Shown: positions 55,909 to 64,000 of the stretch, piece after piece
Layout: each line of letters opens with the position of its first letter
How positions within the stretch are numbered: position 1 is the first letter of the stretch
Assembly: GCF_030412015.1 (NCBI RefSeq)
Contig: NZ_JASNRD010000019.1
Span: 1-64,000 of the forward strand
DNA from: Massilia sp. YIM B02763
Lineage (GTDB): Bacteria; Pseudomonadota; Gammaproteobacteria; Burkholderiales; Burkholderiaceae_D
DNA: 64,000 nucleotides
Reading direction: 5' to 3'
Program-made: the position numbers and the translations under genes
The notes under the pieces: generated by a model
What the model was told of the DNA's origin: nothing
What the model saw: the letters and a program-made list of their open reading frames with translations, nothing else
Database searches by the model: none

Positions 55909-56793
55909 CTAGCGGCTGGGCAGGAACTTGGCCGGATCGACCGGCTTGCCCTGCTGGCGTATTTCGAAATGCAGTTTGACCGTGTCGGTATCCGAATTGC
56001 CCATTTCCGCGATCACCTGGCCCTTGGTCACATTCTGACCTTCCTTGACCACGATCGTTCGGTTGTGTGCATAAGCCGACAACAGGCTGTTGCTGTGCTT
56101 GACGATCACGAGATTACCATATCCGCGGATGCCGCTGCCCGCATACATCACCTTTCCCGACCCGGCCGCCATCACCTGCTGGCCCAGCCTGCCCGCGATG
56201 TCGATGCCCTTGTTCTTGCCTTCGTCGAAGGTGGCGACGATGCGGCCGTCGGACGGCCACATCCAGCTCAGTTTCTCGTCGTCGCTGGCGGTGACGGTGC
56301 TGCCGGCGGCGATGCCGGTCACCTTTTCCGCCTTCGGATTGTCTTCCTTCTGGGCCAGGGCGGCATCGCTGTAAGGCTTCTTGGCACCATTCGGCTCCGT
56401 CTTCCTGGGCGGCGCGGCCGGCTTGTCGGCGCCCGGCATGGCGATCGGGTTCGTCACGACGGCATTCCCGCCCCGTTCCGGCGGCGCCACCTTCAGCACC
56501 TGGCCGACCTTGATGTCGTCCGGATCGGAAAGATTGTTCCAGGCCACCAGGTCGCGGTAGTTCTGGCCATGGTCCAGCGCGATGCGCAGCAGCGTGTCGC
56601 CGCGGCGCACGGTATAGGTGCCGGCGGCATCCGGGCGGGTGTCCTCTGCCGGCGGCGCGGCGGGACGCGGGCGCGAAATGGCGACGGACGAGGTCGGACG
56701 ATCGATCACGGGGGCGACACGGGTCTCGGTACTGCAGGCGGACAGCACGCCAAGACTAAGGGTCAACAGGGCTAAACGGGGCGTTGGTTTCAT
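55909..56793 (-). CDS. nlpD: Murein hydrolase activator NlpD
   Basis: A 294-aa outer-membrane lipoprotein (lipobox VLSAC, Cys20). A LysM domain (about 58-105, YTVRRGDTLLRIALDHGQNYRDL) binds peptidoglycan. The C-terminal M23 domain (about 185-290) has lost zinc ligands: the usual H of HxGxD is Asn in NKGIDIAG, and the HxH pair is LHFE only. NlpD is therefore an activator of AmiC-type amidases in septum splitting, not a peptidase. It sits just before rpoS as in E. coli. Confidence 0.96.
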   Translation of the reverse strand: MKPTPRLALLTLSLGVLSACSTETRVAPVIDRPTSSVAISRPRPAAPPAEDTRPDAAGTYTVRRGDTLLRIALDHGQNYRDLVAWNNLSDPDDIKVGQVLKVAPPERGGNAVVTNPIAMPGADKPAAPPRKTEPNGAKKPYSDAALAQKEDNPKAEKVTGIAAGSTVTASDDEKLSWMWPSDGRIVATFDEGKNKGIDIAGRLGQQVMAAGSGKVMYAGSGIRGYGNLVIVKHSNSLLSAYAHNRTIVVKEGQNVTKGQVIAEMGNSDTDTVKLHFEIRQQGKPVDPAKFLPSR

Positions 56794-56825
56794 TCTCTCT
56801 TAATTCTGTTACAACATTCTGGCAT

Positions 56826-57674
56826 TCAGGCGATGCCTGGCCGCAGCGGAACGAAATGGCAGCTTTCCAGCGTCTCGCTGGTCCATTCCGACTTGCCGGT
56901 GCGGGTAATACGCTGCAGGTGCTGGACCTGCGCGCCGACGGGGGCCACGAGGCGGGCACCGATGGCCATCTGCTCGAGCAGTGCGCGCGGCACGTCGAGT
57001 CCGGCCGCCGCGAGGATGATGCCGTCGAACGGGGCCACCTGCGGGAGCCCAAGCATACCATCTCCGTACTGTAAACGCAGGTTAGCGATACGCAAGGGCC
57101 GTAAATTCGCCTTGGCGAGCTCGTGCAGCGGCTTGATCCGCTCGATCGAATACACCTCTTTCGCCACGCAGGCCAGCACGGCGGCCTGGTAGCCGCAGCC
57201 GGTGCCGATCTCGAGCACGCGCTCCAGCGGACGGCCGCTCCCCTTCAGCAACTCGATCATGCGGGCCACGATGTAGGGCTGCGAAATCGTCTGGTTGTGG
57301 CCGATCGGCAGCGATACGTCGGCATAGGCCTGGGCCGACAGCGCCTCCTCGATGAACAGGTGGCGCGGCACGGTTTCCAGCGCCACCAGCACCTGCGGAT
57401 CCTTGACGCCCTGGCGCGCCACGCGCGCGGCCATGGCGCGGCGCGGCGCCTCGGTGGCCATCAGGTCGGACCTGGCCAGCGTCTGCTGCGGCTGTGGCGG
57501 CTGCGCGCCCGCCTGCGGCTTGGCCGCGCCCGGCGCCGGGCCGGCCTGGTTCGAGCGCGCGTTCTGGGTCGCCGTCTGCGGCGTGGCCACGGGCGCCGGC
57601 GCAGCAGGCTTTCGCGTCGTCCCGCCCGTCACCGACGACAGGGGCAAGGGAAAATTGCTGCGCTTCTCGCTCAT
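56826..57674 (-). CDS. pcm: Protein-L-isoaspartate O-methyltransferase
   Basis: A 282-aa protein-repair enzyme that methylates isoaspartyl residues. The SAM motif is [16 protein letters not shown] and post-motif segments [10 protein letters not shown] and [10 protein letters not shown] are typical. The catalytic core starts at about residue 70 ([16 protein letters not shown]); before it lies a 65-residue Pro/Ala/Gln-rich extension absent from E. coli Pcm (208 aa). The start overlaps the surE stop by 4 bases (ATGA). The surE-pcm-nlpD-rpoS order is the classical one. Confidence 0.95.
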
Positions 57675-58408
57675 CCCAACCCCCGCCGCAGCAAGTCGAG
57701 CTGTTCGCGGTGCGTGAGGTCGACCTGCAAGGGCGTGATCGACACATTGCCGCCGGCGGTCGCGTGGAAATCGGTACCCTCGCCCGCATCGCGACAGGCG
57801 CCGGGCGCACCGATCCAGTAGATTTCCCGGCCGCGCGGATCCTGGCCGCGGATCACAGGCTCGGATTGGTGGCGCCGGCCCAGCCGGGTCGGCACCAGCG
57901 CGCCCATGTTTTCATATGGCAAATTCGGGATGTTCACGTTCAGCAGGAACGGCGAATCGATCAGGTCGAAGCGGCGCTGCACGATGTCGCGCGCCACCCG
58001 CGCCGCCGATTCCACCTCGGACCAGCCGCCATGCACCTGCGAAAAGGCGATCGCCGGGATGCCGAACAGGTAGGCCTCGGTCGCGGCGGCCACCGTGCCC
58101 GAATAGAGCGTGTCGTCGCCCATGTTCTGGCCGTTGTTGATGCCGGAGACGACGAGGTCCGGACGATAGTCGAGCAGCCCCGTCAATGCGATGTGCACGC
58201 AATCGGTCGGGGTGCCGTTGACAAAATAAAAACCGTTGGCAGCCTTCGACACCGACAGCGGACGGTCCAGCGACAGCGAATTGGACGCGCCCGACCGGTT
58301 GCTGTCGGGGGCGACCACCACGATGTCGGCGACCGGCGCGAGCGCGGCGGCCAGGGCCTGGATGCCGGGGGCAAGATAGCCGTCGTCGTTACTGATAAGG
58401 ATACGCAT
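57671..58408 (-). CDS. surE: 5'/3'-nucleotidase SurE
   Basis: A 245-aa metal-dependent survival nucleotidase. [19 protein letters not shown] carries the metal ligands (the Asp pair in NDDG), [15 protein letters not shown] the Ser/Asn ligands, and [26 protein letters not shown] the ligand Asn. The length matches the family. It is the first gene of the rpoS block and is separated by 117 bases from the TIR/ATPase operon upstream. Confidence 0.97.
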
Positions 58409-58525
58409 GCCGCGATTTTACCTGAAGCAACGGCCAGTTCACCCCATCGCGCTGCACATTTATTACACAACTGCGTGCACAACCGCGCCCGCCGCACGGG
58501 CCGGCGCAACGCGCGAAACAGGCCG

Positions 58526-60139
58526 TCAGCCGGCCACCAGCGGCCGTCCGCCGGCCGCCTGGATCAGGGCGCCTTCGAGGGACGAGACCTCGTCCTCGGT
58601 GAAGGCCAGCAGCGCATCCTTGTCGCCTTCCTGCAGGTAGACCTGCTTGATCATCGCCGCCGCCCGTCGCCGTAGCGGATGCGCCACACTCGGGCGCAGG
58701 ACGCGGCTGCGCAGGCTGTCGGCCAGCGCGCGCGCCTCCCGCGGACTGCGGCTGTCGATCAGTTCCTGCAGGCGCGACAGGGCTTCGTCGAGCACCTCGG
58801 CCCCGGCCGCCGCGCCGCTGCCGGCCGCGCCGCCCACCGGCGCCTCGGTGCCCGCGCCGTCGCCGCTCCCGGCCGGCACGTCGCCGGCGCGGCGCGCGCC
58901 CGGATGGCCGCGCGTGCCCTCTTCCATCGCGTGCAAGCCGGCTTCCAGCGCGATCACGTGCTGCTCGATGCGGCGCGCCGCCTCCAGTTCGCCGTGCTGG
59001 CCCAGGTACAGGTGGCCCAGGCGCGCCAGTTCGCGCACCATGCTCGAGGCCTGCGGATCGGCGGCGCGGCGGCGCAAGGCCTCGGCCGCCTGCAGCAGGC
59101 GCACTTCGGCCAGGGGGCGCCACGGGAAATGGCCGGGTTCCAGCCATTCGAGCAAGGCCTCGATGCCGCGCAGCGGGCCCAGGCGGTCGCCCTGGCCCGG
59201 ATGCGCGCGCCCGCTCGGCAGCGGCGCGCCGAGGATGGCGGCCTGCGGCAACTGCACCTCGTCGAGGTAGCTGTCGAGCGTCACGCTGGCCAGGCCGTAG
59301 CTTTCCCCCAGCATCTTTTCCAGCGTCGCCTGGTAGCCCCGCACGCCGCGGCTCGCATCGCCCAGGCGCCAGCGGCGCCGTCCCTCGCCCGCCGCCTCCA
59401 CCGGGGCGGGCAGCGGATAGACCAGCAGCGGACGCTGTTCGTCCTCGTGGCTGCAGCGGTAGTCGAGGGCGCGCGCGACCACGCCGCGCAGGCCGTCCAG
59501 GCTGCGCGGGTCGGGCGTGAACAGGCCGACCATCTTGTCGGGCAGGAGCGCCGTGCAGACACTGGCAGCCGCCGAGCGTCCGCTGCGGCAGTCGATCAGC
59601 ACGTGGGCAAAGCGCCCGGCCAGGCGCGCGGCGAAGGCGCGGAACAGCCCCGGACAGGCGCCGAACAGGCCGTCCCAGTCGAGCCGGTCGACGCGTTCGC
59701 CGTAGCTGTCGTCGAGGCGGCCGGCGCGCATCAGGTACAGGGGGCGGCTGTCGTCGACGCGTTCGATGTAGTCGTCCCAATCGAGGGCATCGAGCACGCG
59801 CGCGGCCTGCGCGGCGGCCGCGCCGTCGGTGGAGCGCAGCGGCCGCGCGTGGGACGCCGCCTTGTCCAGGCCCTCGCGGCAGGCCTCGAACAGTTCGAGC
59901 ACGCCGCCGCGCAGGTTGCCGGACGCTTGGCCGGTCGCGCCGAAGTAGTGGTGCAGGCCGGGCGCTTCGAGGTCCCAGTCGATCATCAGCACCGGTGTCC
60001 TTGCCCCTTCGCGCCCGGCCAGCAGCCAGGCCGCGTGCACGAGGGCGAGGCTGCGCGCGGGCGCGCTGTCGTAGGAATAGAACGTCGTCACTTGGCCAAC
60101 GGATGCGTCCGGTCTTGCGGTGATGCGGTTGGTTTCCAT
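58526..60139 (-). CDS. KGGVGR-variant MinD/ParA-like ATPase protein with a replaced P-loop
   Basis: A 537-aa protein. The start at 60139 has AGGAG upstream. The N-terminal 250 residues follow the MinD/ParA-like AAA proteins with a KGGVGR P-loop, usually written FYSYKGGVGRSLALxNxA then VLxIDWDLEAPGLHxYF. Here residues 18-32 read TTFYSYDSAPARSLA: the KGGVGR is replaced by DSAPAR, removing the Lys and all Gly, though the rest (LMIDWDLEAPGLHHYF at 51-66, FAHVLIDCRSG near 180) is kept. No frameshift is seen. Residues 380-537 are helical with a Gly/Ala-rich linker (about 435-465) and resemble an effector-binding repeat region. It follows the TIR gene by 8 bases. ATP binding is probably lost or altered. 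Confidence 0.8.
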   Translation of the reverse strand: METNRITARPDASVGQVTTFYSYDSAPARSLALVHAAWLLAGREGARTPVLMIDWDLEAPGLHHYFGATGQASGNLRGGVLELFEACREGLDKAASHARPLRSTDGAAAAQAARVLDALDWDDYIERVDDSRPLYLMRAGRLDDSYGERVDRLDWDGLFGACPGLFRAFAARLAGRFAHVLIDCRSGRSAAASVCTALLPDKMVGLFTPDPRSLDGLRGVVARALDYRCSHEDEQRPLLVYPLPAPVEAAGEGRRRWRLGDASRGVRGYQATLEKMLGESYGLASVTLDSYLDEVQLPQAAILGAPLPSGRAHPGQGDRLGPLRGIEALLEWLEPGHFPWRPLAEVRLLQAAEALRRRAADPQASSMVRELARLGHLYLGQHGELEAARRIEQHVIALEAGLHAMEEGTRGHPGARRAGDVPAGSGDGAGTEAPVGGAAGSGAAAGAEVLDEALSRLQELIDSRSPREARALADSLRSRVLRPSVAHPLRRRAAAMIKQVYLQEGDKDALLAFTEDEVSSLEGALIQAAGGRPLVAG

Positions 60140-60147
60140 AGGGCTCC

Positions 60148-60756
60148 TCATTTTTTTGGGAAGGTAGGATCCGGTATCTCGCGCCATGGGGGTGGGACAT
60201 CGGGGAGCACGAATTGGTTGCAGTCATGCCCCGGCGGCGTGCACTTTTTCAGGTACTGGTAGTGGGTGACGATCCGCCGGACCATCTTGGCGATGTCGGG
60301 CAGGAATTCCGGGTTCGACTTCAAGTCGGCCGTCGCCATCGTGAAGCGGGAGAAATCGACGTAGAACGCGGCTTCGCTGACCTGGGGCGGCAGGCGCTCC
60401 GGGTGCCGGGTCATGATCACCGGGATGATCAGCCGGCTGGGCAGCGGATACCAGGTGGCTCGCTCGGCTTCGAGCAGGCGCATGGCGGCGTACTCGCGCC
60501 GCGTGTACGCGTGGGCCTCGTACTTCGGGGTATAGATCAGCACCATGCAGACGCTCTCGCACATCGCGCGCGCGATCTTGCGGTCGAGGTCGTCGCCGCC
60601 GCCGAGCTGCTCGGAATCGACGAACAATTCGTCCTCGTCGTCGAAATACGGCTCGAGATAGCAGCGCAGCGCATCGGCCAGCGTGGTCTTGAAGCGCTGC
60701 ATGAGCTCGTGCCGGCCATGGGCATAGCTGAAAAAACAGCCGTAGCGGATCGTCAT
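60148..60756 (-). CDS. TIR-domain protein
   Basis: A 202-aa protein. The start at 60756 has GGAGGGAGAGG just upstream; an ATG at 60771 lies within that site and is less likely. The first 150 residues form a TIR domain: YGCFFSYAHGRHELMQRF (beta-A), FDDEDELFVDSEQLGGGDDLDRKIARAM (BB-loop region), VCMVLIYTPKY (beta-D) and AYTRREYAAM, in which Glu88 is at the place of the catalytic Glu of NAD-cleaving TIRs. No helix or second domain is seen; the C-terminal 50 residues are Pro-rich. It is the first gene of a two-gene operon with the ATPase-like gene. NADase activity is inferred. Confidence 0.83.
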   Translation of the reverse strand: MTIRYGCFFSYAHGRHELMQRFKTTLADALRCYLEPYFDDEDELFVDSEQLGGGDDLDRKIARAMCESVCMVLIYTPKYEAHAYTRREYAAMRLLEAERATWYPLPSRLIIPVIMTRHPERLPPQVSEAAFYVDFSRFTMATADLKSNPEFLPDIAKMVRRIVTHYQYLKKCTPPGHDCNQFVLPDVPPPWREIPDPTFPKK

Positions 60757-60893
60757 CGCCTCTCCCTCCATTCATCTACCGCTGGGACTGGAAGACTCTA
60801 GCAACTCACCCGTACTGCATGTTGCGGGAACGCAGAAGGCCGAATGGGCCCATAATCCGATATTTACGTATCCGATAACAGGGAGAGAGAGAC

Positions 60894-61868
60894 ATGAAAG
60901 CCGTCGTCTGCAGGAACTGGGGGCCGCCGGACAGCCTGGCGCTGGAAGAGGTGCCGGACCCGCAGCCGGGGCCGGACCAGGTGGTCGTCGAGGTCAGGGC
61001 CGCCGGCGTCAATTTCCCCGACGTGCTGACCGTCCAGGGCAAGTACCAGGTCAAGCCGCCGCTCCCTTTTATCCCCGGCAACGAGTTCGCCGGCATCGTG
61101 CGCACCGTCGGGCCGGGCGTCACGGCGTTCGGCCCGGGCGACCGCGTGATCGGCTTCACCCGTACCGGCGCCTTCGCCGAACTGGCGCTGGCGCCCGTGT
61201 CCACGCTCGTGCCCATGCCCGCCGGCATGGACTTCGACGTGGCCGCCTCCGTCACCCTCACCTACGGGACGGCGCACCATGCGCTGGCCGACCGCGGGGC
61301 CCTGCAGCCCGGCGAGACGCTGCTGGTGCTGGGCGCGGCCGGCGGCGTCGGCCTGGCCGCGGTCGAGATCGGCAAGGCGCTGGGCGCGCGCGTGATCGCG
61401 GCGGCATCGAGCGCCGACAAGCTGGCCGTGTGCCGCGAATGCGGCGCCGACGTGTTGATCGACTATGAACGCGACGACTTGCGCGAGGCGATCCGCGCCG
61501 CCACCGACGGCCGCGGGCCGGACGTCATCGTCGATCCGGTCGGCGGCATCTACAGCGAGCCCGCGCTGCGCTCGATCGCCTGGCGCGGACGCCACCTCGT
61601 GGTCGGCTTCGCCAACGGCGCGATCCCGCAGGTGCCGTGGAACGTGATGCTGCTCAAGGGCGCTTCGGTGATGGGCGTGTTCTGGGGCGATTTCCAGCGC
61701 AAGGAGCCGGCCGCCAACGCGCAGGCGATGCGCACGATGCTGGACTGGATGATGGAAGGGAAGCTGCGGCCGCTGGTGTCGAAGCGCTATGCGCTGGCGG
61801 ACACCGCGCACGCGCTGGAAGACATGGCGGCGCGGCGGGTGCTGGGCAAGGTCATTGTGGCACCGTAG
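60894..61868 (+). CDS. NADPH:quinone oxidoreductase (medium-chain dehydrogenase family)
   Basis: A 324-aa zinc-free medium-chain reductase. The N-terminal catalytic domain has AAGVNFPDVLTVQGKYQ and PGNEFAGIV; the Rossmann motif is LVLGAAGGVGLAAVEIGKALG (about 143-163). It lacks the Cys zinc ligands of alcohol dehydrogenases. Such enzymes (Qor/AdhP type) reduce quinones or enals with NADPH. GAGAGAG precedes the ATG. It is read divergently from the TIR operon. The stop TAG lies in a GTAGGGTGGAC repeat. Confidence 0.92.
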   Translation: MKAVVCRNWGPPDSLALEEVPDPQPGPDQVVVEVRAAGVNFPDVLTVQGKYQVKPPLPFIPGNEFAGIVRTVGPGVTAFGPGDRVIGFTRTGAFAELALAPVSTLVPMPAGMDFDVAASVTLTYGTAHHALADRGALQPGETLLVLGAAGGVGLAAVEIGKALGARVIAAASSADKLAVCRECGADVLIDYERDDLREAIRAATDGRGPDVIVDPVGGIYSEPALRSIAWRGRHLVVGFANGAIPQVPWNVMLLKGASVMGVFWGDFQRKEPAANAQAMRTMLDWMMEGKLRPLVSKRYALADTAHALEDMAARRVLGKVIVAP

Positions 61869-61893
61869 GGTGGACGGCTCCGCCGTCCACGCG
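61865..61893. repeat. Half copy of the GTAGGGTGGAC dispersed element
   Basis: GTAGGGTGGACGGCTCCGCC then GTCCACGCG, a hairpin with 9-bp arms. The TAG at 61866-61868 is the quinone oxidoreductase stop codon. Confidence 0.85.
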
Positions 61894-61937
61894 GTGATCG
61901 TTGACGGCTCCTTGCCCGTGCTCGATATCGGTTCGCA

Positions 61938-62069
61938 GGGGTCAGAGCCCGGTTCTTCTTTCAAAGGGCTCTGCCCCCGGTGTTCAGCCGCAAAGCCGAA
62001 CCCGGCTGATCGACGGCAGGCAACTCCGGGGTCAGAGCCCTTTTAACAGCAACACCGGGCTCTGACCCC
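61938..62069. repeat. Clustered GGGGTCAGAGCCC repeats, two direct and two inverted
   Basis: GGGGTCAGAGCCC occurs at 61938-61950 and 62028-62040; inverted copies are GGGCTCTGCCCC (imperfect, 61966-61977) and GGGCTCTGACCCC (62057-62069). The layout of alternating orientation resembles REP clusters linked to REP-associated transposases, although no such gene is present. The last copy shares a base with the helicase stop codon. Confidence 0.82.
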
Positions 62070-64000
62070 TACGGCAGGTTCTTGAAGAAGGCGATCACCT
62101 CTTCCTGCACCCGCGTACGCTTGAACGGCGGCAGGCTCTGCCAGATGCGCCGGCCGTAGGGCTTGCTGATCACGCGCGGGTCGCACAGCATCAGCACGCC
62201 GCGGTCGTCGACGTCGCGTATCAGGCGGCCGGCGCCCTGCTTCAGGTTGATGATGGCTTCCGGCAGCGTGTGGTGGACAAAGCCGTTCATGCCCTTCTTT
62301 TCCATCACTTCGATGCGCGCGGCCAGCACCGGGTCGTCGGGCGGGGCGAACGGCAGCTTGTCGATGATCACCAGCGACAGCGCCTCGCCGCGCACGTCCA
62401 CGCCTTCCCAGAAGCTCTGGCTGCCCACCAGCACGGCATTGCCGGCGTTGCGGAAGGAATCGAGCAGCTCGGTACGGCCGCGCTCGCCCTGCACGAACAG
62501 GGGGAAGTCCAGGCCGCGGTCGGCGAATTCCTGGCGCAGGCGCTCGGCCACGCGGTTGACGGCGCGGATCGTCGTGCACAGGAAGAAGGTGCGCCCGCCG
62601 GCCGCCTCGATCACGGGCAGCGCCATGTCGACGACGGCGTCGGTATAGCCCATCGTGTTCGGCTCGGGCAGGCCGGTCGGCACGTACAGGATGCCCTGCT
62701 CCGGATAATTGAAGGGGCTGGGCCAGGTGTGGGCGGGCTCGCCCGTCATGCCGAGCTGGGCGGTGAAGTGCTTGAAGTCGTTCTTCACGGCCAGCGTCGC
62801 GGACGTGAAGATCCAGCTGCGCGGCGCGCCGGCGCGCTGGCCGGCGAAGATCGGCGCGATCGACAGCGGCGTCTTGTGCAGCTGCAGCGCGGAGGCGAAG
62901 GCCTCGACCCACAACACGGCGTCGTCGCCCTCGATCTCCTTGCCTTTCTTGGGCTCGGACTTCCAGGCCTTGTACTGTTCCAGCAGCTCGACGGCGCGCA
63001 CGCGGCACTGTTCCAGCGTCTCCGCGCGCTCGGCGTTTTCTTCCAGCACGTCGATCAGGCCTTCGAGTTCCTCCTTCAGCTTTTCCAGCGCCGGGAAGAA
63101 GCCGGAATCCGGCGCGATCTGGGGCAGCGACAGGCGCGTGCCGCTGTCCGGGAACGTGAGGCGCAGGTCGCGCGCCGCCTTTTCGACCGTCGTCACGGCC
63201 TTGGCCCAGTCGACGCCGGCGCGCGCGTGCGCCAGGCCTTCGGCCAGCACGTCGCGGCACAGCTCCAGCACCTGCGAAGTCGAGACCGAGGTGCCGAAGA
63301 ACAGCGTGGCCACTTCCGGCAGCTGGTGCGCCTCGTCGAAGATGATGGTATTGGCGGACGGCAGCAGCTCGGCCATGCCGCCTTCCTTGAGCGCCACGTC
63401 GGCGAAGAACAGGTGGTGGTTGACGACGACGACGTCGGCCTGCTGCGCCTCGCGGCGCGCCTTCATCACGAAGCAATCCTGGTAGTACTGGCATTCCTGC
63501 CCGAGGCAGTTCTCGCGCGTCGAGGTCACCAGGTTCCACACCGACGCCGTTTCCGGCACCTTGGTCAGCTCGGACTTGTCGCCCGACTGGCTCATCTTGA
63601 CGAAGCGCGAGATCTCGCGCAGGTGGCCGACGTCGTCGCGCGAGGTCAGGCGCCCGTTCGACAGCGTACGCTCCAGGTGGTAGTGGCAGACGTAGTTCGA
63701 GCGGCCCTTGAGCAGCGCCACCGAGACGGGCGCGCGCAAGGCGGCGCGCACGTTCGGGATGTCGCGCGAGAACAATTGGTCCTGCAGGTTCTTGGTCCCC
63801 GTCGAGACGATGGTCTTGCCGCCCCACAGCAGGGCCGGCACCAGGTAGGCGAAGGTCTTGCCCGTGCCGGTGCCGGCTTCGGCGATCAGGGTGCCCTGGG
63901 TGCCGATCGCGTGCGCGATGGCCTTGGCCATTTCGGTCTGCGACTGGCGCGGCTTGAAGCTGCCGACGGCGGGCGCGAGCGGGCCGCCGGCGCCGAAGAT
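62069..64000 (-). CDS. DinG/YoaA-family ATP-dependent DNA helicase, 5' end missing
   Basis: The 3' 643 codons are present; the gene enters from the right edge with FGAGGPLAPAVGSFKPRQSQTEMAKAIAHAIG, the usual start region of DinG/YoaA, so only a few residues are missing. Walker A is EAGTGTGKTFAYLVPA, the DEAH box is IIFDEAH, and VGSQSFWEGVDVRGE and GRLIRDVDDRG are late helicase motifs. The four Cys of the iron-sulfur cluster are in NYVCHYHLER, NCLGQECQYYQDC. These 5'-3' helicases unwind damaged or R-loop DNA. The length fits YoaA (about 640 aa) better than DinG (about 710). Confidence 0.95.
   Translation of the reverse strand: MFGAGGPLAPAVGSFKPRQSQTEMAKAIAHAIGTQGTLIAEAGTGTGKTFAYLVPALLWGGKTIVSTGTKNLQDQLFSRDIPNVRAALRAPVSVALLKGRSNYVCHYHLERTLSNGRLTSRDDVGHLREISRFVKMSQSGDKSELTKVPETASVWNLVTSTRENCLGQECQYYQDCFVMKARREAQQADVVVVNHHLFFADVALKEGGMAELLPSANTIIFDEAHQLPEVATLFFGTSVSTSQVLELCRDVLAEGLAHARAGVDWAKAVTTVEKAARDLRLTFPDSGTRLSLPQIAPDSGFFPALEKLKEELEGLIDVLEENAERAETLEQCRVRAVELLEQYKAWKSEPKKGKEIEGDDAVLWVEAFASALQLHKTPLSIAPIFAGQRAGAPRSWIFTSATLAVKNDFKHFTAQLGMTGEPAHTWPSPFNYPEQGILYVPTGLPEPNTMGYTDAVVDMALPVIEAAGGRTFFLCTTIRAVNRVAERLRQEFADRGLDFPLFVQGERGRTELLDSFRNAGNAVLVGSQSFWEGVDVRGEALSLVIIDKLPFAPPDDPVLAARIEVMEKKGMNGFVHHTLPEAIINLKQGAGRLIRDVDDRGVLMLCDPRVISKPYGRRIWQSLPPFKRTRVQEEVIAFFKNLP

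Follow-up and report, generated by a model that had tools for sequence, protein, structure and literature searches.

The window, a stretch of 64,000 nucleotides from Massilia sp. YIM B02763 (contig NZ_JASNRD010000019.1), carries on its minus strand a gene for a TIR protein and, directly behind it, a gene for a MinD/ParA-like protein. The whole span 55909-63931 is occupied by nlpD, pcm, surE, this pair, qor and dinG. The parts of the locus are as follows:

60148-60756, minus strand: TIR gene, 202 aa.
60493-60495, minus strand: GAG codon for Glu88 of the TIR protein, the residue that occupies the place of the catalytic glutamate in TIR NADases.
60140-60147, minus strand: intergenic gap, the 8 bases that separate the TIR stop codon from the next ATG, with a GGAG before the ATG that resembles a ribosome site.
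58526-60139, minus strand: MinD/ParA-like gene, 537 aa.
59105-60094, minus strand: SIMIBI (MinD/ParA-type) domain, residues ~16-345, from the NCBIfam match, the AlphaFold2 model and Foldseek.
60053-60070, minus strand: former P-loop, residues 24-29, DSAPAR replacing KGGTGR, from sequence and alignment.
59957-59977, minus strand: WDLEAPG segment, residues 55-61; Asp54, Asp56, Pro60 and Leu62 are kept in 74/74 alignment rows with a lost P-loop.
58916-59113, minus strand: helices 343-408, start of the C-terminal helical region, from AlphaFold2 secondary structure.
58556-58816, minus strand: helices 442-528, conserved C-terminal helical end, from AlphaFold2 secondary structure.

Re-reading the sequence reproduced the coordinates, lengths, motifs and 8-base spacing given by a first-pass annotation of this DNA, and most loci of the genus have that spacing. 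The annotation had also called the P-loop change a clean substitution, and the codons GAC AGC GCG CCC GCG CGC do read DSAPAR in frame, with WDLEAPG downstream. A frameshift or sequencing error as the source of DSAPAR is out, given these in-frame codons and an acidic residue at the lysine position in 55/55 readable genus genomes. With that residue written in all four GAN codons across 74 distinct rows, the change exceeds what chance or sequencing error would give.

The smaller product is a TIR protein with a glutamate at the catalytic position, as indicated by its Pfam TIR_2 match (40.1 bits, above the cut-off of 28), its structural model and the conservation of Glu88. The AlphaFold2 model (pLDDT 88.8) finds its best Foldseek matches among SPARTA TIR subunits, which make up 10 of the 12 matches at E 0.001 or better, and among plant NLR TIRs. 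In the alignment Glu88 is unchanged in 74/74 lost rows, in 37/37 rows from the Duganella-type and Janthinobacterium-type genera (g40 and g6; one of the 37 bears the RDD loss described below) and in 18/18 distant rows. The glutamate is present in all 164 genomes, out of 166, in which the motif was found, in agreement with the annotation's statement that the TIR protein keeps it. In a profile alignment the stretch around Glu88 falls opposite the Glu stretch of BtpA/TcpB and of plant TIRs, at E-values that are weak. The TIR protein is most likely the effector of the pair, a predicted NADase that would use Glu88.

The larger product has the MinD/ParA (SIMIBI) fold. Its AlphaFold2 model (pLDDT 85.2) matches BcsQ best and also McdA, MinD and Soj, at E-values from 2e-5 to 3.5e-4 and a probability of 1.00. 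Against the NCBIfam family AAA_KGGVGR (NF047398) the window protein scores 79.2 bits, below the curated cut-off of 90, as do three other proteins with a lost site (88.9, 72.4 and 54.9 bits); an intact relative at the same locus (L051) scores 123.5 bits, over the cut-off. The family's P-loop is absent from the window protein, which has DSAPAR instead, and the whole window genome holds no second AAA_KGGVGR match over the cut-off. In longer homologues the domain is followed in the alignment by TPR_10/TPR_12 repeats, and the TPR arrays are still long in many proteins with a lost site. The window protein is shorter than most relatives, and a Pfam scan of it gave no TPR match; its helices 343-408 may be the remnant of a TPR array. 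Residues 448-537 are 86-90% identical across eight close genus genomes. The segment from WDLEAPG to about residue 107 (window 59800-59930 and homologous stretches) is highly variable in length among genus members. In one Duganella-type subgroup (L205, L206, L209-L212) the MinD-like protein is only ~346-350 aa long and carries no TPR, with KGGVGR or KGGAGR intact.

The pairing of the two genes is conserved. In the genus of the window the MinD-like gene is found in 56/62 genomes and the TIR gene in 57/62, the odd genome (G049) having a TIR gene that runs off the contig end and no MinD-like match. In a family sample of 392 genomes, searched for the MinD-like gene with residues 194-537 as query, 163 genomes have the TIR gene and 161 the MinD-like gene, all 161 within the 163; the pair is confined to 5/44 genera of that sample. 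It is single-copy and stands at the same site across these five genera. Readable flanks show the gene order dinG and/or qor, TIR, MinD-like, surE, pcm, nlpD in loci of the window genus as well as in those named Duganella, Rugamonas and Janthinobacterium, in line with the annotation's placing of the pair in core DNA between surE and a quinone oxidoreductase. Five genus genomes retain surE and dinG or qor and miss the pair as a unit. From the fixed gene order and the joint absence we conclude that the pair belongs to the vertically inherited core DNA and that its two genes are lost together. A mobile island was rejected within the family, since the site is the same in five genera.

A few loci depart from the rule. 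Two genomes of the family sample have a TIR match and no MinD-like match. One of them (G288, L341) encodes at the usual site a TIR protein that is 193 aa or longer and retains its Glu, and no MinD-like gene is present there. In the other (G388, L218) an in-frame deletion fuses ~70 TIR residues to the TPR sequence of the partner and has removed both the ATPase domain and the catalytic Glu. The MinD-like frame is broken after codon 66 in G050 (L153/L078) and ends at codon 404 in G038 (L168).

Of 166 genomes with the MinD-like gene, 165 have a readable P-loop: 79 keep KGG, and the lysine is replaced by D or E in 77, by R in 5 and by Q in 4. The acidic forms fill the window genus (55/55) and two sister genera (g4, 5/5; g12, 17/17; 22/22 together). 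The Janthinobacterium-type genus has KGG in 35/35, and the Duganella-type genus in 44/53, the nine altered P-loops being RDDGSR, RNDGSR (twice), REAASR, RGGAGC, QDGCGR (three times) and QEGCGR. The first-pass annotation had asked whether DSAPAR itself is conserved and had held that intact relatives would mean a recent loss in one strain. What is conserved in the three-genus clade is the acidic residue at the lysine position, with other altered forms in the Duganella-type genus; and intact KGGxGR motifs do occur at the same site (79 of 165 readable), but the loss is neither recent nor strain-specific. A recent single-strain loss is rejected by the acidic residue in 77/77 readable genomes of the three genera. 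Across 74 distinct rows it is encoded by GAG (37), GAA (17), GAC (16) and GAT (4), so that it survives synonymous codon changes. An intact P-loop is ancestral, because K24 and Gly28 stand in 18/18 distant rows (Chloroflexi, Methanosarcina and others). In a sample of the class, 13/369 genomes pass the AAA_KGGVGR cut-off, and in the 13 of 14 places that were read GGVGR is always present, its preceding letter being K in 10, Q in 2 and R in 1. A change of the first letter alone is therefore not rare, and loss of the glycines is. In three loci (L190, L193, L257) the P-loop is intact and switch II is changed (D190 region); these are possible intermediates of loss.

The P-loop does not erode by itself. 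The annotation had described a replaced P-loop in kept surroundings, and the residues of the fold do stay, but Asp190, Gly193, Gln212 and Arg246 are altered too. Among 70 columns conserved in intact and distant rows, the acid clade erodes 11 (24, 25, 28, 31, 35, 190, 212, 246, 273, 306 and 307), with P-loop and switch-II columns over-represented (6/11 versus 5/59 elsewhere, p=0.001); in the 74 lost rows G28 is changed in 74, D190 in 73, Q212 in 74 and R246 in 74. Conversely, 36 of the 70 columns are kept in ≥97% of lost rows, among them Arg29, Asp54 and Asp56. The lineages with other substitutions erode similar columns when their rows are added onto the fixed alignment: the acid and R lineages share 9/11 eroded columns versus 8/56 other conserved columns (p=2.4e-5), and the other overlaps are significant too, at p=0.02 for acid with Q, p=0.0025 for R with Q and p=0.0075 for acid with RGGAGC. 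All four lost lineages are affected at K24 and at the 306-307 loop, where the R, Q and RGGAGC rows are gapped, so that this loop is alignment-dependent. In the Q clade Asp56 has become Asn. Alignments of the pair excluded loci without both genes (e.g. L007, L039, L100, L103, L106, L108, L109), MinD-like proteins shorter than 300 aa (L097, L105 and L078/L153, the last of which has an in-frame stop) and sequences duplicated over their first 230 aa; L081 was retained despite its disturbed TIR frame.

The site appears to have been lost recurrently. In a tree of SurE, Pcm, DinG and NlpD, all 84 acidic rows and ten rows without a P-loop state, some of which are copies with an unread P-loop rather than true absences, form one clade with 100% support, and the RDD rows fall inside a 34-row Duganella-type fork (98%, starred). 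In a second tree, of SurE, Pcm and NlpD, the minimum number of K/non-K changes by parsimony is four: one for the acid clade, one for RDD with REAASR (99%), one for Q (100%, within a 98% fork holding 15 K rows) and one for RGGAGC alone, the last resting on one genome with a long branch. This tree has 96 rows, one for each of the 96/166 genomes that offered 300 or more neighbour residues; the Janthinobacterium-type stretches were mostly too short. Its placement of RDD among Duganella-type rows is a 10-row fork with a support of 83, and when its starred branches are considered by themselves, no more than two changes are required for the K group. A tree built from the pair places the RDDGSR rows weakly with the acid clade (support 77), and in a topology test on that tree the alternative join stands (p-AU 0.326). 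We prefer separate losses because the neighbour genes nest the RDD rows among Duganella-type rows; for the same reason one single loss is disfavoured. In these Massilia- and Duganella-group soil bacteria the ATP-binding site thus appears to have been lost several separate times, about four, with the TIR active site unchanged.

Both genes are under purifying selection. By a simple counting method, median dN/dS in the MinD-like domain is 0.32 for rows with D (190 pairs), 0.50 for rows with E (1431 pairs; partly saturated) and 0.24 for intact rows (855 pairs); all lost pairs taken together have a median of 0.52 and reach at most 1.0. The TIR medians are 0.13, 0.16 and 0.10 for D, E and intact rows, respectively. 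In the Q clade the MinD-like values are 0.19-0.25 (6 pairs) versus 0.12-0.21 in intact sisters (3 pairs). The ratio of MinD-like dN to TIR dN is 2.5 in lost rows versus 2.0 in intact rows. These comparisons indicate mild relaxation, not decay.

We suggest that the locus encodes a two-protein TIR switch, in which the TIR protein would be the effector, most likely an NADase acting through Glu88, and the MinD/ParA-like protein would bind and control it. In most relatives the partner would be a KGGVGR-type switch that binds nucleotide and dimerises, its C-terminal TPR repeats acting as the sensor. In the Massilia-type lineage, and separately in Duganella-type subgroups, the nucleotide site would have been lost with fold and pairing kept. 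The window protein has probably lost ATP binding and hydrolysis, to judge from its residues, and would then be a pseudo-ATPase scaffold that holds or releases the TIR protein by protein contacts, through the TPR region or a surface ligand as the trigger, rather than by ATP; the pair may serve in stress response or phage defence. A TIR NADase under a MinD-like scaffold that repeatedly became a pseudo-ATPase is our best reading, with a probability of roughly one half. In its favor we count the conserved pairing, the overlapping erosion of the nucleotide site in separate lineages, the retained fold columns, the constraint on the Q clade, the invariant TIR glutamate and the conflict-type neighbours of some distant pairs (below), as well as the SPARTA TIRs as nearest to the TIR model, together with the dead Argonaute partner of that system. 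Against it we count the high dN/dS of the E rows and the genome that keeps the TIR gene without the partner, as well as the deviant motifs of McdA (SGGQGKT) and BcsQ (RGGVGTT), structures of both of which are nevertheless titled with ATP.

A more specific version seems to us possible but tentative, with the odds against it: some four conversions of an ATP-gated TIR regulator into a pseudo-ATPase would have taken place at one site, with the effector active site untouched. In the Massilia lineage the acidic residue may pair with Arg29, mimicking bound phosphates and locking the partner in the shape that it has with nucleotide; alternatively, the vacant pocket may respond to a different ligand, for instance a TIR product.

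Several other explanations have to be weighed. First, the protein could still bind nucleotide in an unusual way, as BcsQ or McdA do, the motif change merely retuning it. The best Foldseek match is itself a protein with a deviant motif, as is McdA (the accessible text of PMC9178275 lists both motifs); Arg29 and both Asp of the DxD segment are unchanged in 74/74 lost rows, and with Arg29, Asp54 and Asp56 still in place in the acid clade, the site may continue to bind some ligand. Moreover, in 3/13 class-sample loci of the KGGVGR family Q or R stands for the lysine before an unchanged GGVGR, and the Q and RGGAGC forms retain Gly28. However, the acid and R clades also lose Gly28, Gln212, Arg246 and the 306-307 loop, and a negative charge replaces the lysine in 77 genomes. 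We consider this explanation unlikely.

Second, the MinD-like gene could be a relic under relaxed selection, heading for loss. The absence of the pair from 5/62 genus genomes, the higher dN/dS of the lost clades (0.32 and 0.50 versus 0.24), the broken and shortened frames in G050 and G038 and the short window protein without a TPR match would all fit. Against this, the frames are long and open in three genera, the acidic residue is kept through synonymous changes, the MinD-like/TIR dN ratio rises only from 2.0 to 2.5, the Q clade is constrained like its intact sisters and many lost proteins carry long TPR arrays, so that decay is improbable.

Third, and a little less probable still, the two genes could be a toxin-antitoxin pair in which the MinD-like protein merely neutralises the TIR protein. 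The tight two-gene order and a MinD-like gene that never occurs without a TIR gene are what such a pair would show, but the genome with a TIR gene (at least 193 aa, Glu present) and no partner speaks against it, as does a single copy at a vertically kept site, unlike typical mobile toxin-antitoxin genes. A plain antitoxin is disfavoured because the MinD-like gene is never alone while one genome has the TIR gene alone. Finally, that the TIR protein is a non-enzymatic adaptor in a housekeeping complex, with Glu88 structural, is the least probable explanation: the core position beside surE-pcm-nlpD is fixed in five genera and PADLOC models of known systems cover neither protein (weak partial matches only), but the Glu is invariant in 129 diverse rows, 18 of them distant, and the best Foldseek matches are SPARTA and plant NLR TIRs.

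Farther afield, nine neighbours of distant pairs were scanned. In three loci with TIR-KGGTGR pairs (L093, L094, L099) a Roc-COR-TIR gene lies directly upstream of the pair, with LRR matches in L093 and L099, and the gene next to the L088 pair encodes MAP3K_TRAF_bd and TPR-S domains; these four contexts look like conflict systems. The other five had no telling content: metabolic or transport genes (L086, L089, L091), a phage integrase (L087) and no match (L090). The integrase gene, at L087:9077-9643 behind a Methanosarcina pair, hints at mobility there.

The prevailing view of TIR immune proteins, in plants as in bacteria, is that a nucleotide-binding partner gates them. If the pseudo-ATPase reading is true, TIR switches can repeatedly shed nucleotide control. 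The intact and dead partners, closely related, at the same site and with near-identical TIR proteins, form a natural experiment on the need for nucleotide, and the question is testable with wild-type proteins from neighbouring genera.

In relation to known systems, the first-pass annotation's phrase, an undescribed system, is too strong: NCBIfam models exist for both families, and inactive MinD/ParA-like domains have already been predicted (PMC7159879, in its accessible text). Domain order and fold agree with the AAA_KGGVGR family, whose cut-off intact same-locus relatives pass; the window protein differs in its lost motif and a score under 90. The accessible text of PMC7159879 predicts inactive MinD/ParA-like domains in VMAP (MoxR-vWA) and standalone peptide-processing systems, and describes catalytically inactive STAND cores in iSTAND ternary systems, beside effectors such as TIR. 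The VMAP and AP-ATPase systems described there likewise have a MinD/ParA-like domain predicted to be inactive and also use TIR, but the domain is an effector of vWA proteins or an AP-ATPase fusion, in contrast to a separate gene with one TIR gene here. Similarly, iSTAND in the same text shares the inactive NTPase core near TIR effectors, with a STAND fold and MoxR-vWA there and SIMIBI here. MoxR and vWA genes are absent from our locus, whose neighbours are nlpD, pcm, surE, qor and dinG, and the accessible main text of PMC7159879 does not name Massilia, Duganella or Oxalobacter. Literature searches returned nothing on KGGVGR or on FxsC with TIR, nothing on TIR in connection with degenerate Walker A motifs in ParA-like/TadZ proteins, and nothing useful on Massilia/TIR/surE or on pseudo-ATPase ParA.

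Thoeris (a ThsB-type TIR with ThsA) does not describe the pair, since the best match, to ThcB4, is 15.6 bits against a cut-off of 220 and the partner is MinD-like. The FxSxx-COOH system (FxsC, NF040588; TPR protein, NF040586) likewise joins a TIR to a TPR-carrying protein, and both models give partial matches here; the window TIR scores 38.3 bits with FxsC_Nterm (37-46 bits for the TIR proteins overall) against a cut-off of 130, and no radical-SAM or FxSxx peptide gene lies in 55909-63931. Pfam and PADLOC scans gave no Argonaute match, so that our pair differs from SPARTA in having no Argonaute/APAZ and a MinD/ParA-like partner instead. SPARTA nevertheless provides the nearest TIR folds, and in it a TIR NADase is run by a catalytically dead Argonaute partner.
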